From Haloplanus rubicundus (GTDB lineage: Archaea > Halobacteriota > Halobacteria > Halobacteriales > Haloferacaceae), in assembly GCF_003342675.1 (NCBI RefSeq), contig NZ_CP031148.1:496001-560000 (forward strand): a DNA stretch of 64,000 nucleotides, written 5' to 3'. A program made the translations under genes and the position numbers. The notes below the pieces were generated by a model, which saw only the letters and a program-made list of their open reading frames with translations, was not told the DNA's origin and ran no database searches. This document shows, piece after piece, positions 4,727 to 10,932 of this stretch; positions within the stretch are counted from its first letter, which is position 1, and every line of letters starts with the position of its first letter.

Positions 4727-4778
4727 GGTGAGTCGCGACGACGGAGCGGTGAGTCGCGACGGGCGGAGCGGTCAGTCG
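4727..4778 (+). repeat. 21-22 bp tandem repeat at the 3' end of the ABC transporter gene
   Basis: GGTGAGTCGCGACG plus seven or eight further bases occurs at 4727-4747 and 4748-4769. A third, partial copy beginning GGTCAGTCG covers the stop codon of the ABC transporter gene (4772-4774). The copies differ by a one-base indel and substitutions. This is a small duplication of a gene tail, of the same kind as those at serS and the DUF58 gene. Confidence 0.6.
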
Positions 4779-6664
4779 TCGGCGACCGTCTGCACGTCGG
4801 CCTGTGCGTCCCAGAGGGCGGCGTAGTCGCCGTCGGCGGCCAGCAGGTCGGCGTGGCTCCCCGTCTCGACGATTTCGCCGTCGTCGAGGACGACGATGCG
4901 GTCGGCGTCCCGAATCGTCGAGAGTCGGTGGGCGATGACGAACGCGGTGCGGTCCTCGATGAGGCGGTCGAGGCTCTCTTGGATCAGTTCCTCCGTCTCG
5001 GTGTCCACGTCACTGGTCGCCTCGTCGAAGACGATGATCGCGGGGTCGTTGAGGAGCGCGCGGGCGATGGCGAGACGTTGGCGCTGGCCGCCGGAGAGTT
5101 TGACGCCACGCTCGCCGACGAAGGTGTCGTAGCCGGCGGGCAGGTCGCTGACGAACGCGTGGGCCTCGGCCGCTTTCGCGGCCTCGATCACGCGGTCACG
5201 CGCCGCTCCGTCCTCGCTCCGTTCGGCCGCCAACGCCGTCCGATCCCCGTACGCGATGTTCTCGGCGACGGTCCCCGAGAAGAGGTAGGGGTTCTGTTCG
5301 ACGACGGCGATCTCCTCCCGGAGGGCGTCGAGGTCGTACTCGCGGACGTCGACGCCGTCGACGCGGACCGCGCCCGCATCCGTATCGTGGAACCGTGCGA
5401 CGAGTTTCACGAGCGTCGACTTGCCGGCGCCGGTCGGGCCGGCGAGGCCGACGGTCGTCCCCGCGGGCACGTCGAGGGAGACGTTCCGGAGCACCGGCTC
5501 CCGGTCACCGTAGCTGAAGGTCACGTCGTCGAACGTCACCGCGCCGTCGACGGTCTCGGGTCGATGGGGGTCGTCGGGGGACGTGATCGTCGGCTCCCGG
5601 CCCAGCAGGCCGAAGACGCGCTCGGCGCTCGATTTCGCCAGCTGATACTTGTTCGCGGACTTCCCGACCCGGCGCATCGGGGAGTAGAGACGGCGCAGGT
5701 AGAGAAAGAAGAGTGCGAAACTGCCCGCGGTGAGCGCCCCCTCGGCGCCGGTGATGTTGTCCATGCCGCCGACGTAGAGGACGAGGACGAACACGACGCC
5801 GGTGAGCAGGCGGAGCGCGGCGAAGAAGGCCCGCCGGATGCGCAACGCGGCCACCTTCTCGTCGTGGTAGTCCTGACTTCGCTCGGCGACGCGGTCGCGC
5901 TCGAAGGCGTAGCGGTTGAACGTCTTGATCACCGCCGCGCCGCCGAGGTTGTTCTCCAGTCGGGTGTTGAGCCGGGAGACGGACTCGCGAATCGACTTGT
6001 ACCGGGGCTCGATCCACGTCAGGAAGTATCCGCTCGCGACGCCGATGACGGGGACGGGCGCGAGCGCGATGGCGGCGAGCTTCGGCGAGTACGTCCAGAG
6101 GACGACGGCGATGCCGCCGACGGTGGCGACCACCCGTATGAGCTGTCGGAACTCGGTGTTGAGGAACTGCTCCAATCTGTTGACGTCGCTGTTCAGGATG
6201 GACATCATGCCGCCGGTCTGGTGGTCGACGAAGAAGTCCATCGACAGGTGCTGGAGGTGGTCGTAGGTGTCGTTGCGGAGGTCACGCTGGATCTTCTGGG
6301 CGGCCGACTGGAGGAGGTATCGCGAGCCGAAGCGGGTGAGCGACCGGACGACGTACGCGAGCGCCGCGATGGCGACGAGGCGTTCGAGCAGCGCCGTCCG
6401 CGCCGCGGTGCCGACGATGACCTCGCTCGGCAGGAGGCCGACCCGTGCGAGCAGGCCGGGGTCGGACGGCCCGAGGATGACCCGGTCGATAGCCGTCGCG
6501 ACGAGAATCGGCGGGAGGAGTCGGGCAAAGCGCGTACAGAACGCGGCGACGACGCCGAGCGTGAGTCGCGGCCAGTACGGTCGGGCGTAGGAAAGCAGGC
6601 TCACCATCGGGTGGCCGTCGAGCGTCTCGCGGACGTCCTCGAAGCCGCCGTCGTCGTCCGGCAT
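4772..6664 (-). CDS. ABC transporter, fused permease and ATP-binding domains
   Basis: This is a 630-residue half-transporter of the MsbA/multidrug exporter type, expected to work as a homodimer in the membrane. Residues about 30-330 form the six-helix exporter transmembrane domain. The nucleotide-binding domain follows, with Walker A GPTGAGKST (about 410), Q-loop VEQNPYLFSG, signature LSGGQRQRLA (about 520), Walker B IIVFDEATSDVD (about 540) and the switch His in AHRLST. The cargo cannot be read from sequence. A short acidic insertion (near nt 5195-5232) lies between the Q-loop and the signature; its DNA, with CTCGCTCCG, resembles the intergenic hairpin motifs. The start at 6664 is an ATG, and only its own 3' repeat separates it from the next gene. 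Confidence 0.93.
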   Translation of the reverse strand: MPDDDGGFEDVRETLDGHPMVSLLSYARPYWPRLTLGVVAAFCTRFARLLPPILVATAIDRVILGPSDPGLLARVGLLPSEVIVGTAARTALLERLVAIAALAYVVRSLTRFGSRYLLQSAAQKIQRDLRNDTYDHLQHLSMDFFVDHQTGGMMSILNSDVNRLEQFLNTEFRQLIRVVATVGGIAVVLWTYSPKLAAIALAPVPVIGVASGYFLTWIEPRYKSIRESVSRLNTRLENNLGGAAVIKTFNRYAFERDRVAERSQDYHDEKVAALRIRRAFFAALRLLTGVVFVLVLYVGGMDNITGAEGALTAGSFALFFLYLRRLYSPMRRVGKSANKYQLAKSSAERVFGLLGREPTITSPDDPHRPETVDGAVTFDDVTFSYGDREPVLRNVSLDVPAGTTVGLAGPTGAGKSTLVKLVARFHDTDAGAVRVDGVDVREYDLDALREEIAVVEQNPYLFSGTVAENIAYGDRTALAAERSEDGAARDRVIEAAKAAEAHAFVSDLPAGYDTFVGERGVKLSGGQRQRLAIARALLNDPAIIVFDEATSDVDTETEELIQESLDRLIEDRTAFVIAHRLSTIRDADRIVVLDDGEIVETGSHADLLAADGDYAALWDAQADVQTVADD

Positions 6665-6707: not shown

Positions 6708-8147
6708 CTACTCGGCGTCGCCCCGTCGCAGTTCGACACAGAAGACGGCGCCTTTCGGCTCGTTGTCCTCGATCCAGACCCGCCCCCCGTACGTCTCGAC
6801 GAGGTTGTCGACGAGGTAGAGACCGAGGCCGCTCCCGGGGCTCTCCAGCCCTTTCTCCCCGCGGCCGAATACCTCGCGCTTGCGCGAGTCGGGGACCCCC
6901 GGTCCGTTGTCGGCGATGCGGACGACGACCGTCTCGTCGGTCACCGTCACGTCCACGTCGATCCGCACGTCGGCCTCGTCGTTGTGGAAGACGGCGTTAT
7001 CGAGGATGTTGCCGAACACCGACGACAGGATGGAGGTCGCCGTGACGGTCACGGCGGGCAGGTCGTCGTCGCCGCGGATGTCGATCCCCTCGGAACGGTA
7101 GTCGAAGTTCGAGCGCACGCGCTCGATTTCCGTCCGGAGCACGTCGTCGAGTGCGACCGGTTCGAGTTCCGGGTCGGTCGTCCCCAGGATCTTGGCGAGA
7201 TCACCCACCGCCTCGGTGAGTTCCTTGGTGTGTGTCGCGGCGGTCATGATCCGCTCGAAGGCGTCCGCGTCGTCGTCGCCGAGGCGATCCGCGAGTTCGC
7301 CGCCCCAGCCGAGGGCGACGGCCATGTCGTTGCGGATGTCGTGGCGGACGATCTGGTTGAGGAGGGCGAGTCGGTCCCGTTCGGTTTCGAGGGTCTCCTC
7401 GGCGCGCTTGCGGTCGGTCACGTCCTGTTGGAAGCCGACGTAGTGGGACGGTTCGCCGTCCGCGTCGTAGATGGGTGCGATGGTCACCTGGTTCCAGAAC
7501 TCCTCGCCGTTGCGGCGGTAGTTGCGCACCTCCACCGTCACCGGTTCCCAGTTGTCGACCGCCCGCCGCATCCGTGCGACCGTCTCGGGATCGGTGTCCT
7601 CGCCCTGCAGGAACCGGCAGTTCCGGCCGACGACTTCCGCGACCGGGTAGCCCGTGATCCGCTCGAAGGCGGCGTTGGCGTAGATGACCGGGTTGTCCGG
7701 GAGCGACGGGTCGGAGACGGTGATGCCAACCGGCGCCTCGTCCATCGCCCGTTCCTTGAGCCGGAGGTCCGCGGCCGTCTCGCTCCGAGCGGCCCGCCCG
7801 ACGTGGGTCACGACCACGTAGCGGTCGCCGTCGTGGTCGACGGCGGCGTACCGCACGATCAGCGCCTCGCCGTCGGCGTTGGCGTGGTAGGGGTACTCCC
7901 CGCTCGCCTCGCCCTCGCCGTCGGTCAGGCCCTGCAGTCGGCCGGCGACGGCCACGGCCTGGTCGTTCCCCGACCGCCGGAGTGTGTCGAGATACGGTCC
8001 CTCGTCGTCGGGGACGAGCGGGTGGTCGTGCTCGGCCGTGAACGCGCGCCACGCGGCGTTGGTCTCCACGATCCGCCCCGACTCGTCGATCACCGCGATG
8101 CGGGCCGGGAGCGTATCCAGTACCGCGTCGGTCAGCCCCGTGGGCAT
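6708..8147 (-). CDS. LOV-domain sensor histidine kinase (candidate blue-light receptor)
   Basis: This is a 479-residue soluble kinase without membrane segments. Residues 1-120 form a degenerate PAS-like domain. Residues about 131-248 match a LOV domain: GRNCRFLQG with the adduct cysteine at 177, plus the flavin-binding Asn 209 (VRNYRRNG), Asn 219 (FWNQ) and Gln 240 (GFQQD). A helical linker leads to the H-box VRHDIRND (His 269). The ATPase domain shows an N-box (ILDNAVFHN), IADNGPGVP and GSGLGLYLV. The ATG at 8147 is chosen because longer versions would run into the divergent dehydrogenase. LOV domains bind FMN and form a cysteinyl adduct in blue light; light-regulated kinase activity is therefore inferred, not shown. 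No response regulator lies beside it. Confidence 0.9.
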   Translation of the reverse strand: MPTGLTDAVLDTLPARIAVIDESGRIVETNAAWRAFTAEHDHPLVPDDEGPYLDTLRRSGNDQAVAVAGRLQGLTDGEGEASGEYPYHANADGEALIVRYAAVDHDGDRYVVVTHVGRAARSETAADLRLKERAMDEAPVGITVSDPSLPDNPVIYANAAFERITGYPVAEVVGRNCRFLQGEDTDPETVARMRRAVDNWEPVTVEVRNYRRNGEEFWNQVTIAPIYDADGEPSHYVGFQQDVTDRKRAEETLETERDRLALLNQIVRHDIRNDMAVALGWGGELADRLGDDDADAFERIMTAATHTKELTEAVGDLAKILGTTDPELEPVALDDVLRTEIERVRSNFDYRSEGIDIRGDDDLPAVTVTATSILSSVFGNILDNAVFHNDEADVRIDVDVTVTDETVVVRIADNGPGVPDSRKREVFGRGEKGLESPGSGLGLYLVDNLVETYGGRVWIEDNEPKGAVFCVELRRGDAE

Positions 8148-8280: not shown

Positions 8281-9300
8281 ATGACCGACACGATGCGTGC
8301 GGCGGTAGTCCCCGAGGCGGGTGCCGACTTCGAACTCGTCGACCGACCGATTCCGGACCCCGACCCCACCGAGGTTCGGATCGCGGTCGACGCCTGCGGC
8401 ATCTGTCACAGCGACGTCTTCGTCAAAGAGGGCACCTTCCCCGGCGTCTCCTACCCCCGGACGCCGGGTCACGAGGTGGTCGGCCGGATCGACGCCGTCG
8501 GAGCGGACGTGACGGCCTGGAGCGAGGGCGACCGCGTCGGCGCCGGGTGGCACGGCGGCCACTGTTTCACCTGCGAGCCGTGTCGCCGCGGCGACTTCCT
8601 CCTGTGTGAGAACGCCGAGATCACGGGACTCACCTTCGACGGCGGCTACGCCGAGTACGCGACCGTCCCGAGCGAGGCGCTGGCGGCGGTCCCCGACGAT
8701 CTGGACGCCGTCGACGCCGCGCCCCTCCTCTGTGCGGGCGTGACGACCTACAACGCCCTGCGCAACAGCGATGCCCGACCCGGCGACGTGGTCGCCGTCG
8801 TCGGCGTCGGCGGCCTCGGCCACCTCGGCGTCCAGTACGCCCACGCGGCGGGCTTCGAGACCGTCGCCGTCTCGCGGAGCCCCGACAAGCGTGACCTCGC
8901 TCTCGACCTCGGCGCCGATCACTTCGTCGACGCGAGCGAGACCGACCCCGCAGAGGCGTTACAGGCTCTCGGTGGCGCACGGGTCGTCCTCTCGACGGCG
9001 CCGTCGGCCGACGCCGCCGAGTCCGTCGTAGGTGGTCTCGGCGCGGACGGCGAAGTCGTCGTCGTCGGCATCCCCGGAAAACCGGTTCCGGTCGACGCCC
9101 AGCATCTCGTGGGCACGCGCGGCGCCGTCTCCGGGTGGGGCTCCGGTCACGCCCGCGACTCCCAGGACACCCTCGAGTTCAGCGACCTCCGCGATATTAC
9201 GCCCGTCGTCGAGACGTTCCCCCTCGACGAGGTGGACGCGGCCTACGACCGGATGGTCGAAAACGAGACACGCTTCCGGGCCGTGCTCGATCTCACGTAG
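8281..9300 (+). CDS. Zinc-dependent alcohol dehydrogenase family protein
   Basis: This 339-residue medium-chain dehydrogenase/reductase has the GroES-like catalytic domain followed by a Rossmann fold. Catalytic zinc ligands are expected at Cys in ACGICHSD, His in TPGHEV and Cys in PLLCAGVTTY. The structural zinc site is the four-cysteine stretch CFTCEPCRRGDFLLC. The nucleotide-binding loop is VVGVGGLGHLG, and the Ser-Arg after the second strand (AVSRSPDK) may favour NADP. It oxidises alcohols or reduces aldehydes, but the substrate is not predictable. It is divergent from the LOV kinase, sharing a 133-base promoter region, and is followed by an independent transducer gene. Confidence 0.93.
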   Translation: MTDTMRAAVVPEAGADFELVDRPIPDPDPTEVRIAVDACGICHSDVFVKEGTFPGVSYPRTPGHEVVGRIDAVGADVTAWSEGDRVGAGWHGGHCFTCEPCRRGDFLLCENAEITGLTFDGGYAEYATVPSEALAAVPDDLDAVDAAPLLCAGVTTYNALRNSDARPGDVVAVVGVGGLGHLGVQYAHAAGFETVAVSRSPDKRDLALDLGADHFVDASETDPAEALQALGGARVVLSTAPSADAAESVVGGLGADGEVVVVGIPGKPVPVDAQHLVGTRGAVSGWGSGHARDSQDTLEFSDLRDITPVVETFPLDEVDAAYDRMVENETRFRAVLDLT

Positions 9301-9468: not shown

Positions 9469-10932
9469 ATGACCGTCTCTCAAGAGTCCGGACGCCCGGC
9501 GGCCGAGTTCCCTCTGTCGTTCGACCGGATCGTCGGCCGCATCGGCGCGCCCATCTTCATTCTCGACGCGGACCACGAGGTGGTCCTGTGGAACGGGGGT
9601 ATGGAGGCGTTGACCGGCAGCAGCGAGGCCGACGCTCGGGCGGCCGAGTCCGTCGGCGAGGCCTGGTACCAGGACGGTCGCCGGGCGAAGACGCTCGCGG
9701 ACAAGGTGCTCGACGCCCCCCAAGACGCCCACCGTCAGTTCGACGTCGAGCGCATCGACGACGGCGACCACCCCGAGTACCGGGACCGGAGCACGTTCAC
9801 CGACACCCGCGGCGACACCCGCCACATCACGTTCAGCGCGTCGCCGCTGTACGACGACGGCGAACTCGTCGGCGTCGTGGAACTCGTCAAGGATCGGACC
9901 GAGGACGTCCGTCGCCGGAAGCGCGTCGAGAGCCTCGTCGAGGAGGTCACGGACGCGATGCACGCCATCCAGGACGGTGACCTCGGTGCCCGCGCGGAGT
10001 TCGAAGCCGACGAGTACGTCGACGAGGAGTTGCTCACCGTCGTCGACTCCCTGAACGAGATGGGGGCGACGCTCGACGGCCTCGTCGCGGACGTGGACGA
10101 GCAGACCCGCGAACTCCGCGAGATCACCCAGGAAGTCGCGGACAGCGCCGTCCGGATGGAGGAGCTGGCGGACGAACAGGCCGACCGCACCGAGGAGGTC
10201 GCGGGCGAGGTATCGAGCCTCAGCGCGACGGTCGAGGAGGTTGCCTCGACGGCCGACTCGGTGGCCGACACCAGCCGGCAGGCGCGGGACCACGCCGAAG
10301 GCGGCCGCGAACTCAGCCAGGAGGCCCGCGACACCATGTCGTCGGTCCGCGAATCGAGTCGCGAGGTCCGCGTGGACGTGGACGAACTCAGCGACACCGT
10401 CGACGACATCGACGCGGTGATCGAGGTGATCAACGACATCGCCGACCAGACGAACCTGCTCGCGCTGAACGCCAACATCGAGGCGGCCCGCGCCGACCGG
10501 GACAGCGAGGGCTTCGCCGTCGTCGCCAACGAGGTCAAGTCGCTCGCCCAGCAGGCCCAGGAGCAGGCGGGCGAAATCGAGTCCATGATCGTCGACGTAC
10601 AGGAACGTACGGCGGGCACGGTCGACAGCCTGGAGACCACCGAGGAGCGGATCGACGACGGGGTGCGGGAGGTCGAGGCGGGCATGGAGAAACTCGACGA
10701 CATCGTCGACGCCGTGGGCGAGGCGGTCGCCGGCATTCAGGAGGTGTCGACGGCGACGGACGAACAGGCCGCGAGCGCCGAGGAGATCGCGGCCATGGTC
10801 GACGACGCCCGTGACCGCGCCAACCAGGTCGCCGACGAGGTTCGCGAGGTCGCCCGCGCGGCCGAGCGCCAGACCGAGAAGGTGGCGGAAATAGAACGTA
10901 GCGTCGGCCAACTGCGCGGCGACTCGGTCTGA
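9469..10932 (+). CDS. Soluble methyl-accepting transducer (PAS + MCP signalling domain)
   Basis: This 487-residue transducer has no transmembrane segments, so it should sense an intracellular signal. Residues about 15-140 form a PAS domain (IVGRIGAPIFILDADHEV onward). A HAMP-like linker (about 150-210) leads into a long coiled coil. The hairpin tip that binds CheA/CheW is intact (IADQTNLLALNANIEAARA, about residue 324). Glu/Gln-rich helices on either side could be methylated. No che genes are nearby, so it would report to a chemotaxis cluster elsewhere. The ATG at 9469 is preferred over upstream starts because it follows the TATA box at the right distance. The ligand is unknown. Confidence 0.92.
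   Translation: MTVSQESGRPAAEFPLSFDRIVGRIGAPIFILDADHEVVLWNGGMEALTGSSEADARAAESVGEAWYQDGRRAKTLADKVLDAPQDAHRQFDVERIDDGDHPEYRDRSTFTDTRGDTRHITFSASPLYDDGELVGVVELVKDRTEDVRRRKRVESLVEEVTDAMHAIQDGDLGARAEFEADEYVDEELLTVVDSLNEMGATLDGLVADVDEQTRELREITQEVADSAVRMEELADEQADRTEEVAGEVSSLSATVEEVASTADSVADTSRQARDHAEGGRELSQEARDTMSSVRESSREVRVDVDELSDTVDDIDAVIEVINDIADQTNLLALNANIEAARADRDSEGFAVVANEVKSLAQQAQEQAGEIESMIVDVQERTAGTVDSLETTEERIDDGVREVEAGMEKLDDIVDAVGEAVAGIQEVSTATDEQAASAEEIAAMVDDARDRANQVADEVREVARAAERQTEKVAEIERSVGQLRGDSV

Follow-up and report, generated by a model that had tools for sequence, protein, structure and literature searches.

A PAS-LOV histidine kinase gene of Haloplanus rubicundus and the DICT-like genes that accompany its relatives in haloarchaea

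The window (the whole 64,000-nucleotide stretch of Haloplanus rubicundus DNA that was analyzed) contains a gene whose inferred product is a PAS-LOV-histidine kinase. The gene lies between that for an ABC exporter and a divergent gene for a zinc-type alcohol dehydrogenase, which in turn adjoins a gene for a soluble transducer (Table 1). The transducer gene had been described as downstream of the kinase gene; it is in fact on the opposite strand, past the dehydrogenase gene, and the gene downstream of the kinase is that for the ABC exporter.

Table 1. The kinase gene, its predicted functional sites and its neighbors (positions in the window)
Feature	Position	Strand	Basis or remark
PAS-LOV-histidine kinase gene (P0001), 479 aa	6708..8147	-	single uninterrupted frame; ATG at 8147, stop 6708-6710
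N-terminal degenerate PAS domain, residues 1-117	7797..8147	-	PAS-like topology in model; no Pfam match; fast evolving
LOV domain, residues 128-245	7413..7766	-	Pfam, YF1 alignment, dN/dS, structure fit
Adduct-forming Cys177 codon (predicted)	7617..7619	-	invariant in 14/14 homologues
Flavin-contact Asn209 codon (predicted)	7521..7523	-	position and homologue alignment
Flavin-contact Asn219 codon (predicted)	7491..7493	-	position and homologue alignment
Gln240 codon (equivalent to YtvA Gln123)	7428..7430	-	4gcz alignment, homologue alignment
DVT motif and helical linker, residues 243-268	7344..7421	-	model; constant spacing
Predicted phospho-acceptor His269 codon	7341..7343	-	motif, conservation; HisKA Pfam below cut-off
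Catalytic ATP-binding domain, residues 331-479	6711..7157	-	N-box DNAVFHND, DNGPG, GSGLGL
ABC exporter gene	4772..6664	-	43 nt past kinase stop; neighbor in 9/10 syntenic genomes
Zinc-type alcohol dehydrogenase gene, divergent	8281..9300	+	133 nt from kinase start; neighbor in 9/10
Soluble PAS-MCP transducer gene	9469..10932	+	adjoins dehydrogenase; present in 8/10

Translation of the reverse-strand frame placed Cys177, Asn209, Asn219 and Gln240 exactly where the first-pass annotation had them. The motif GRNCRFLQG begins at residue 174 and keeps the canonical Phe. Pfam profiles matched the LOV part (PAS_9, residues 140-245, E 3.5e-25) and the ATPase part (HATPase_c, residues 374-474, E 1.8e-20, with the N, G1 and G2 boxes present), and a Pfam scan of the front domain gave no match. 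His269 is found within RHDIRND. Because the HisKA profile scored below its cut-off (19.8 against 26.9), the phospho-acceptor domain was assigned from this motif and from the structural model, His269 being invariant and located in a modeled helix that spans residues 244-286. The kinase scored 169 bits, over the LOV part only, against the NCBIfam model for YtvA family photoreceptors (NF052652; curated cut-off 250), and at 152.2 bits it is outside the equivalog of blue-light-activated histidine kinases (NF052306; cut-off 450).

A phmmer search of the PDB gave as its top match YF1 (4gcz; E 4.1e-43; window kinase residues 128-476), a fusion of the LOV domain of YtvA to the kinase of FixL. In the 4gcz alignment, Cys177, Asn209, Asn219 and Gln240 correspond to C62, N94, N104 and Q123 of YtvA. 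Four further YtvA residues, N61, R63, Q66 and R79, coordinate the ribityl chain and phosphate of FMN, as set out in a passage of PMC3836802; their counterparts in the alignment are N176, R178, Q181 and R194, of which R178 and R194 match the phosphate contacts R63 and R79. In YF1, as in the window kinase, the LOV domain is directly N-terminal of the DHp and ATPase domains, and a DIT/DVT motif is followed by a helical linker. The two proteins are 25% identical in the Foldseek alignment, and YF1 differs in being engineered, in having no front PAS domain and in having a linker nine residues longer (4gcz alignment). We gave up inferring from the length of the linker which way light switches the kinase, the kinase part being too far from FixL.

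An AlphaFold2 model of the kinase, built from 29 sequences, had a mean pLDDT of 80.6 and a pTM of 0.48, which is to say that the individual domains are good and that their arrangement is unreliable. Foldseek again ranked YF1 first (E 1.0e-25). The LOV part of the model has the PAS/LOV fold, superposing on the LOV domains of Meiothermus (9vf7) with an rmsd of 1.1-1.6 Å and of Brucella (6ph2) with an rmsd of 1.1 Å. Residues 16-117 are modeled as two strands, helices and three strands, a block with pLDDT mostly of 76-89. This PAS-like order of strands and helices upholds the description of the front domain as a degenerate PAS, even though Pfam is blind there.

Kinases of related design are known. 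The LOV histidine kinase of Brucella abortus (6ph4, 6pps) has, by its entry title, the order LOV-PAS-kinase, in contrast to PAS-LOV-kinase here. Haloarchaeal LOV kinases treated in part of PMC4844311, and ALovD-1 of Lake Diamante, treated in part of PMC12202551, share the PAS/LOV/kinase architecture; according to the latter, ALovD-1 occupies the middle position among three PAS domains, and its LOV motif carries Tyr where that of the window kinase has Phe. The PAS-LOV-kinase of Haloparvum sedimenti (L063/L057) is 60% identical over its full length and has the same key residues but, unlike the window copy, lies about 150 nt from a divergent DICT gene.

We searched 60 genomes, 12 of them from Haloplanus, for orthologues. 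A syntenic orthologue was found in 10 of the 12 Haloplanus genomes, namely the window genome and nine others (70-84% identity; the homologue of Haloplanus ruber is 71% identical). The two exceptions were G004, a 79% complete assembly that has no syntenic orthologue and only a 53% homologue, and G005, from which an intact orthologue is absent. To the ten orthologues (one of them, with its front out of frame, trimmed to its later part) we added four sequences, from Haloparvum, from G004 and from two second copies, for an alignment of 14. None of the 14 varied at Cys177, Asn209, Asn219, Gln240 or His269 or in the ATP-site motifs. Purifying selection is stronger on the LOV domain than on the front PAS: over the 36 pairs formed by nine full-length orthologues, the LOV domain had a median dN/dS of 0.18 and the front PAS (residues 1-124, with a mean pairwise identity of 0.53) one of 0.55, the linker and His helix (0.20) and the ATPase part (0.26) lying between them. 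His269 stands 27 residues beyond Asp242, in the DVT motif, in all 17 family members, as would be expected if a helical linker passes the signal in fixed register. In the assembly of G002 (L053, 6028-7491), the orthologue has intact LOV and kinase parts with which its front PAS is not in frame, through either an assembly error or a genuine loss.

One position near the flavin is variable. Residue 236 is Tyr in the window kinase and Tyr, Phe or Trp among its homologues. Most Lake Diamante LOV domains, according to part of PMC12202551, have Trp or Tyr where those of other kingdoms have Phe, a site that we matched to position 236 by counting back from the Gln. By analogy with what is raised there for archaeal LOV domains, Tyr236 in place of the usual Phe could quench the flavin.

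The view that a complete LOV photosensor sits in a soluble histidine kinase was thus borne out by sequence, conservation and model, and the product of the gene is very probably a soluble histidine kinase under blue-light control. FMN or another flavin would occupy the LOV domain, and blue light would link the flavin C4a covalently to Cys177, after which Gln240 would rearrange. Starting in the LOV sheet, the signal would then travel by way of the DVT motif and the fixed-length helical linker to the His269 helix, shifting the balance of autokinase and phosphatase activities. The probable recipient of the phosphate is a response regulator whose gene lies in another part of the genome. The front PAS is probably a dimerization domain or a second, fast-changing sensory part.

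Could the LOV domain instead be mainly a flavin redox sensor that has kept Cys177 although light is not its physiological signal? A natural haloarchaeal LOV domain that has no Cys, BAT-LOV*, responds to flavin reduction, as reported in a passage of PMC4682037, and the NifL profile also matches the window kinase. Yet Cys177 and the whole of GRNCRFLQ, which redox sensing would not need, are invariant in all 14 aligned homologues, and the Cys can be lost, as it was from three Lake Diamante LOV domains (PMC12202551, in part). We regard a redox role as highly improbable.

LOV kinases had been described as only sparsely reported in archaea, an argument from rarity that fails, as the LOV motif is common in haloarchaeal genomes and archaeal LOV kinases have been in print since at least 2014. 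An exact DNA pattern for the LOV motif occurred in 264 of 391 sampled haloarchaeal genomes and 75 of 86 genera, counts that are lower bounds because variant motifs escape an exact pattern; the reversed pattern, used as a control, had no matches in any listed genome. By 2014, part of PMC4844311 already counted 167 archaeal LOV proteins, about 30% of them HTH fusions and the rest kinases. A 2025 report, PMC12202551, describes in part the purification of one archaeal LOV domain, broadly similar in kind to that of the window kinase, and its photocycle at 3 M salt; our literature search for LOV in Haloplanus found no paper. The window gene is therefore a sound, ordinary member of a family that is common in haloarchaea.

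The pattern occurred five times in the genome of the window, the other four proteins being a LOV-GAF-BAT-HTH_10 protein, a REC-PAS-LOV protein, a GAF-PAS-LOV-kinase and a LOV-kinase. The REC-PAS-LOV protein (L045, 6584-7759) has neither a kinase nor a DNA-binding domain. The gene for the LOV-GAF-BAT-HTH_10 protein, whose LOV cysteine is intact (G000:C2:689252-691700; L044, 6253-8726; L192), is followed about 60 nt downstream on the same strand by a bacteriorhodopsin-type gene, which has both Asp positions of a proton pump. Among the loci examined, a rhodopsin gene follows the LOV-BAT gene at 9 of 9 in Haloplanus and at 5 of 11 in other genera. The Bat protein of H. salinarum is reported, in a passage of PMC4844311, to have no LOV cysteine. 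Since the cysteine is intact in the protein described here, blue light may directly control the pump gene.

We turn now to the neighbors of the kinase gene, of which the dehydrogenase and the transducer had been put forward as possible outputs. On such a reading, the target of the kinase in a local circuit would be the transducer, the ABC exporter or the dehydrogenase. In keeping with this, the ABC gene is present at 9, the dehydrogenase gene at 9 and the transducer gene at 8 of the ten syntenic loci (the window and nine others), and the gaps on either side of the kinase gene are short (43 and 133 nt). The neighbors, however, vary independently of the kinase. The kinase is kept where the dehydrogenase is missing from the locus (G007), where the transducer is missing (G001 and G008, neither of which has a transducer orthologue elsewhere, the best full-length match being 41% or there being no match) and where the ABC gene is located elsewhere in the genome (G003). 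Conversely, G005, the closest relative by neighboring genes (its ABC gene is 96% identical to that of the window), retains the ABC, dehydrogenase, AAA, KefC-like, metallo-hydrolase and SerS genes at 93-96% but has, between intact ABC and dehydrogenase genes, a kinase remnant of about 60 end codons with stops and shifts (L141, about 7590-7830); of its transducer gene there is only a scrap. All of these are observations on single assemblies. The kinase gene is evidently dispensable, as its decay in G005 indicates, and is bound to no single neighbor, given that the neighbors were gained and lost independently. Furthermore, the seven family members elsewhere (7/7) have other neighbors, and no known regulator or DNA-binding protein lies between the kinase and its neighbors. 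Neither proposed output is a response regulator, and none of the 29 REC matches in the genome falls at C2:496001-560000, the window, which makes the kinase an orphan. A local circuit is accordingly unlikely, and support for the dehydrogenase and transducer as outputs is weak. Medium-chain dehydrogenase genes also occur near other members (L059, about 2.5 kb; L060, about 2.1 kb; L190, beside the DICT gene); we set this candidate aside because the subfamilies differ and the comparison was uncontrolled. Such genes are numerous in haloarchaea.

A more consistent neighbor emerged outside the synteny block. A DICT-like gene adjoins the kinase gene in 7 of 7 non-syntenic family members, a count that takes in G004, and in six of these the order is kinase then DICT on one strand. 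The DICT-like proteins of the first four pairs, two of them beside second copies of the kinase (in G002 and G003), one in G004 and one in Haloparvum, are about 253-265 residues long. The DICT gene starts some 60 nt past the kinase gene, on the same strand, in G003, G002 and G004 and is divergent in Haloparvum. The Pfam DICT cut-off was passed by L059, L063 and L190, with L058 below it and L189 and L191 having no match, so that the name DICT-like rests partly on mutual similarity. The gene that follows DICT in the LOV kinase pair of L189 (5009-5446) is an HTH_63 gene by Pfam, and one similar to it by its first residues follows DICT in L191 (5429-5869); it is possible that these provide a DNA-binding output.

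How specific is the pairing? A profile built from the DICT-like proteins of those first four pairs (threshold E <= 1e-12) had matches in 343 of the 391 haloarchaeal genomes, 1-6 in each matching genome. Of more than 150 listed matches, we examined the 30 loci with the best scores. In the first six of these (G003, G002, G025, G396, G084 and G245) a PAS-LOV-kinase lies within 1.5 kb, the kinase of G245 being split by a frame break, and the remaining 24 have no LOV motif and no similar kinase. G396, G084 and G245, which belong to another family and lay outside the profile, nonetheless ranked 4-6 among all DICT matches. When the kinase was compared with the 391 genomes, members of >50% identity were confined to those DICT loci and the syntenic Haloplanus loci. 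As a control, 95 loci from kinase searches (L062-L140, with flanks of 6 kb where the contig allows, and L172-L187, with flanks of 1.5 kb) were searched for DICT: five had it, all of them the same family members, and 90 did not. From the 1-6 matches per matching genome, we estimate that any one gene would have a DICT gene within 1.5 kb by chance in well under 1% of cases.

The syntenic Haloplanus copies are otherwise: 0 of 10 have DICT nearby (in regions of 12.5-18 kb and in the window), and there is no DICT-like gene within 1.5 kb of the window kinase. The nearest DICT gene in the window genome (L188, 1600-2560; G000:C2:1298206-1298955) contains one in-frame TAG and has an IS605 OrfB gene next to it. 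In the kinase tree, a branch (90/98) sets apart the ten syntenic copies, to which the Haloparvum gene and two long-branched rows lie closest. The six operon-type members form a group (99/96), and the placement of the out-group rows is unsure. The DICT tree likewise unites the six operon-type DICTs (90/86), and in it the Haloparvum DICT, a long row, belongs to a different clade beyond starred branches. The tree thus lends no support to the pairing having arisen only once, although the Haloparvum branch is long. Read as it stands, the DICT tree has the kinase-DICT pairing arise at least twice; if the long branch misleads, the pairing may be ancestral and have been lost in Haloplanus. A functional tie is favored either way.

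Is the DICT-domain protein, then, the partner of the whole kinase family, such that the window copy once had it and no longer does, was always without it or relies on one from another locus? We give this nearly an even chance. The adjacency in all seven non-syntenic members, the high ranks of the three members outside the profile and the two or more origins on the DICT tree speak for it, as does a role in the light response, a prediction for DICT that a passage of PMC8612252 repeats from elsewhere. Weighing on the other side are the want of DICT at all ten syntenic loci and the in-frame TAG in the nearest DICT gene of the window genome, as well as the small number of non-syntenic members (seven loci) and the fact that the function of DICT is a prediction and its structure model has a pLDDT of 36.7. 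A passage of PMC8846402 lists DICT among domains with no discernible purpose and makes no link there to LOV, and in openly licensed papers we found none that links DICT with LOV kinases. In the other lineages, the DICT protein would possibly act as a partner of the kinase.

Taking these observations together, we tentatively propose that a PAS-LOV-histidine kinase and a DICT protein, joined in one genus by an HTH_63 protein, might form a haloarchaeal blue-light module that was assembled at least twice, with DICT as partner or co-sensor, and that the window copy became separated from it. LOV kinases are common in haloarchaea and have almost no physiology, and the window kinase adds one well-conserved case. 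The DICT pairing matters more than the kinase by itself, since DICT is widespread and its role has only been guessed to be light-related. A photoreceptor kinase fixed beside DICT in two families offers a direct, testable handle on the domain. If the proposal is right, the DICT domain would gain its first concrete photoreceptor partner.
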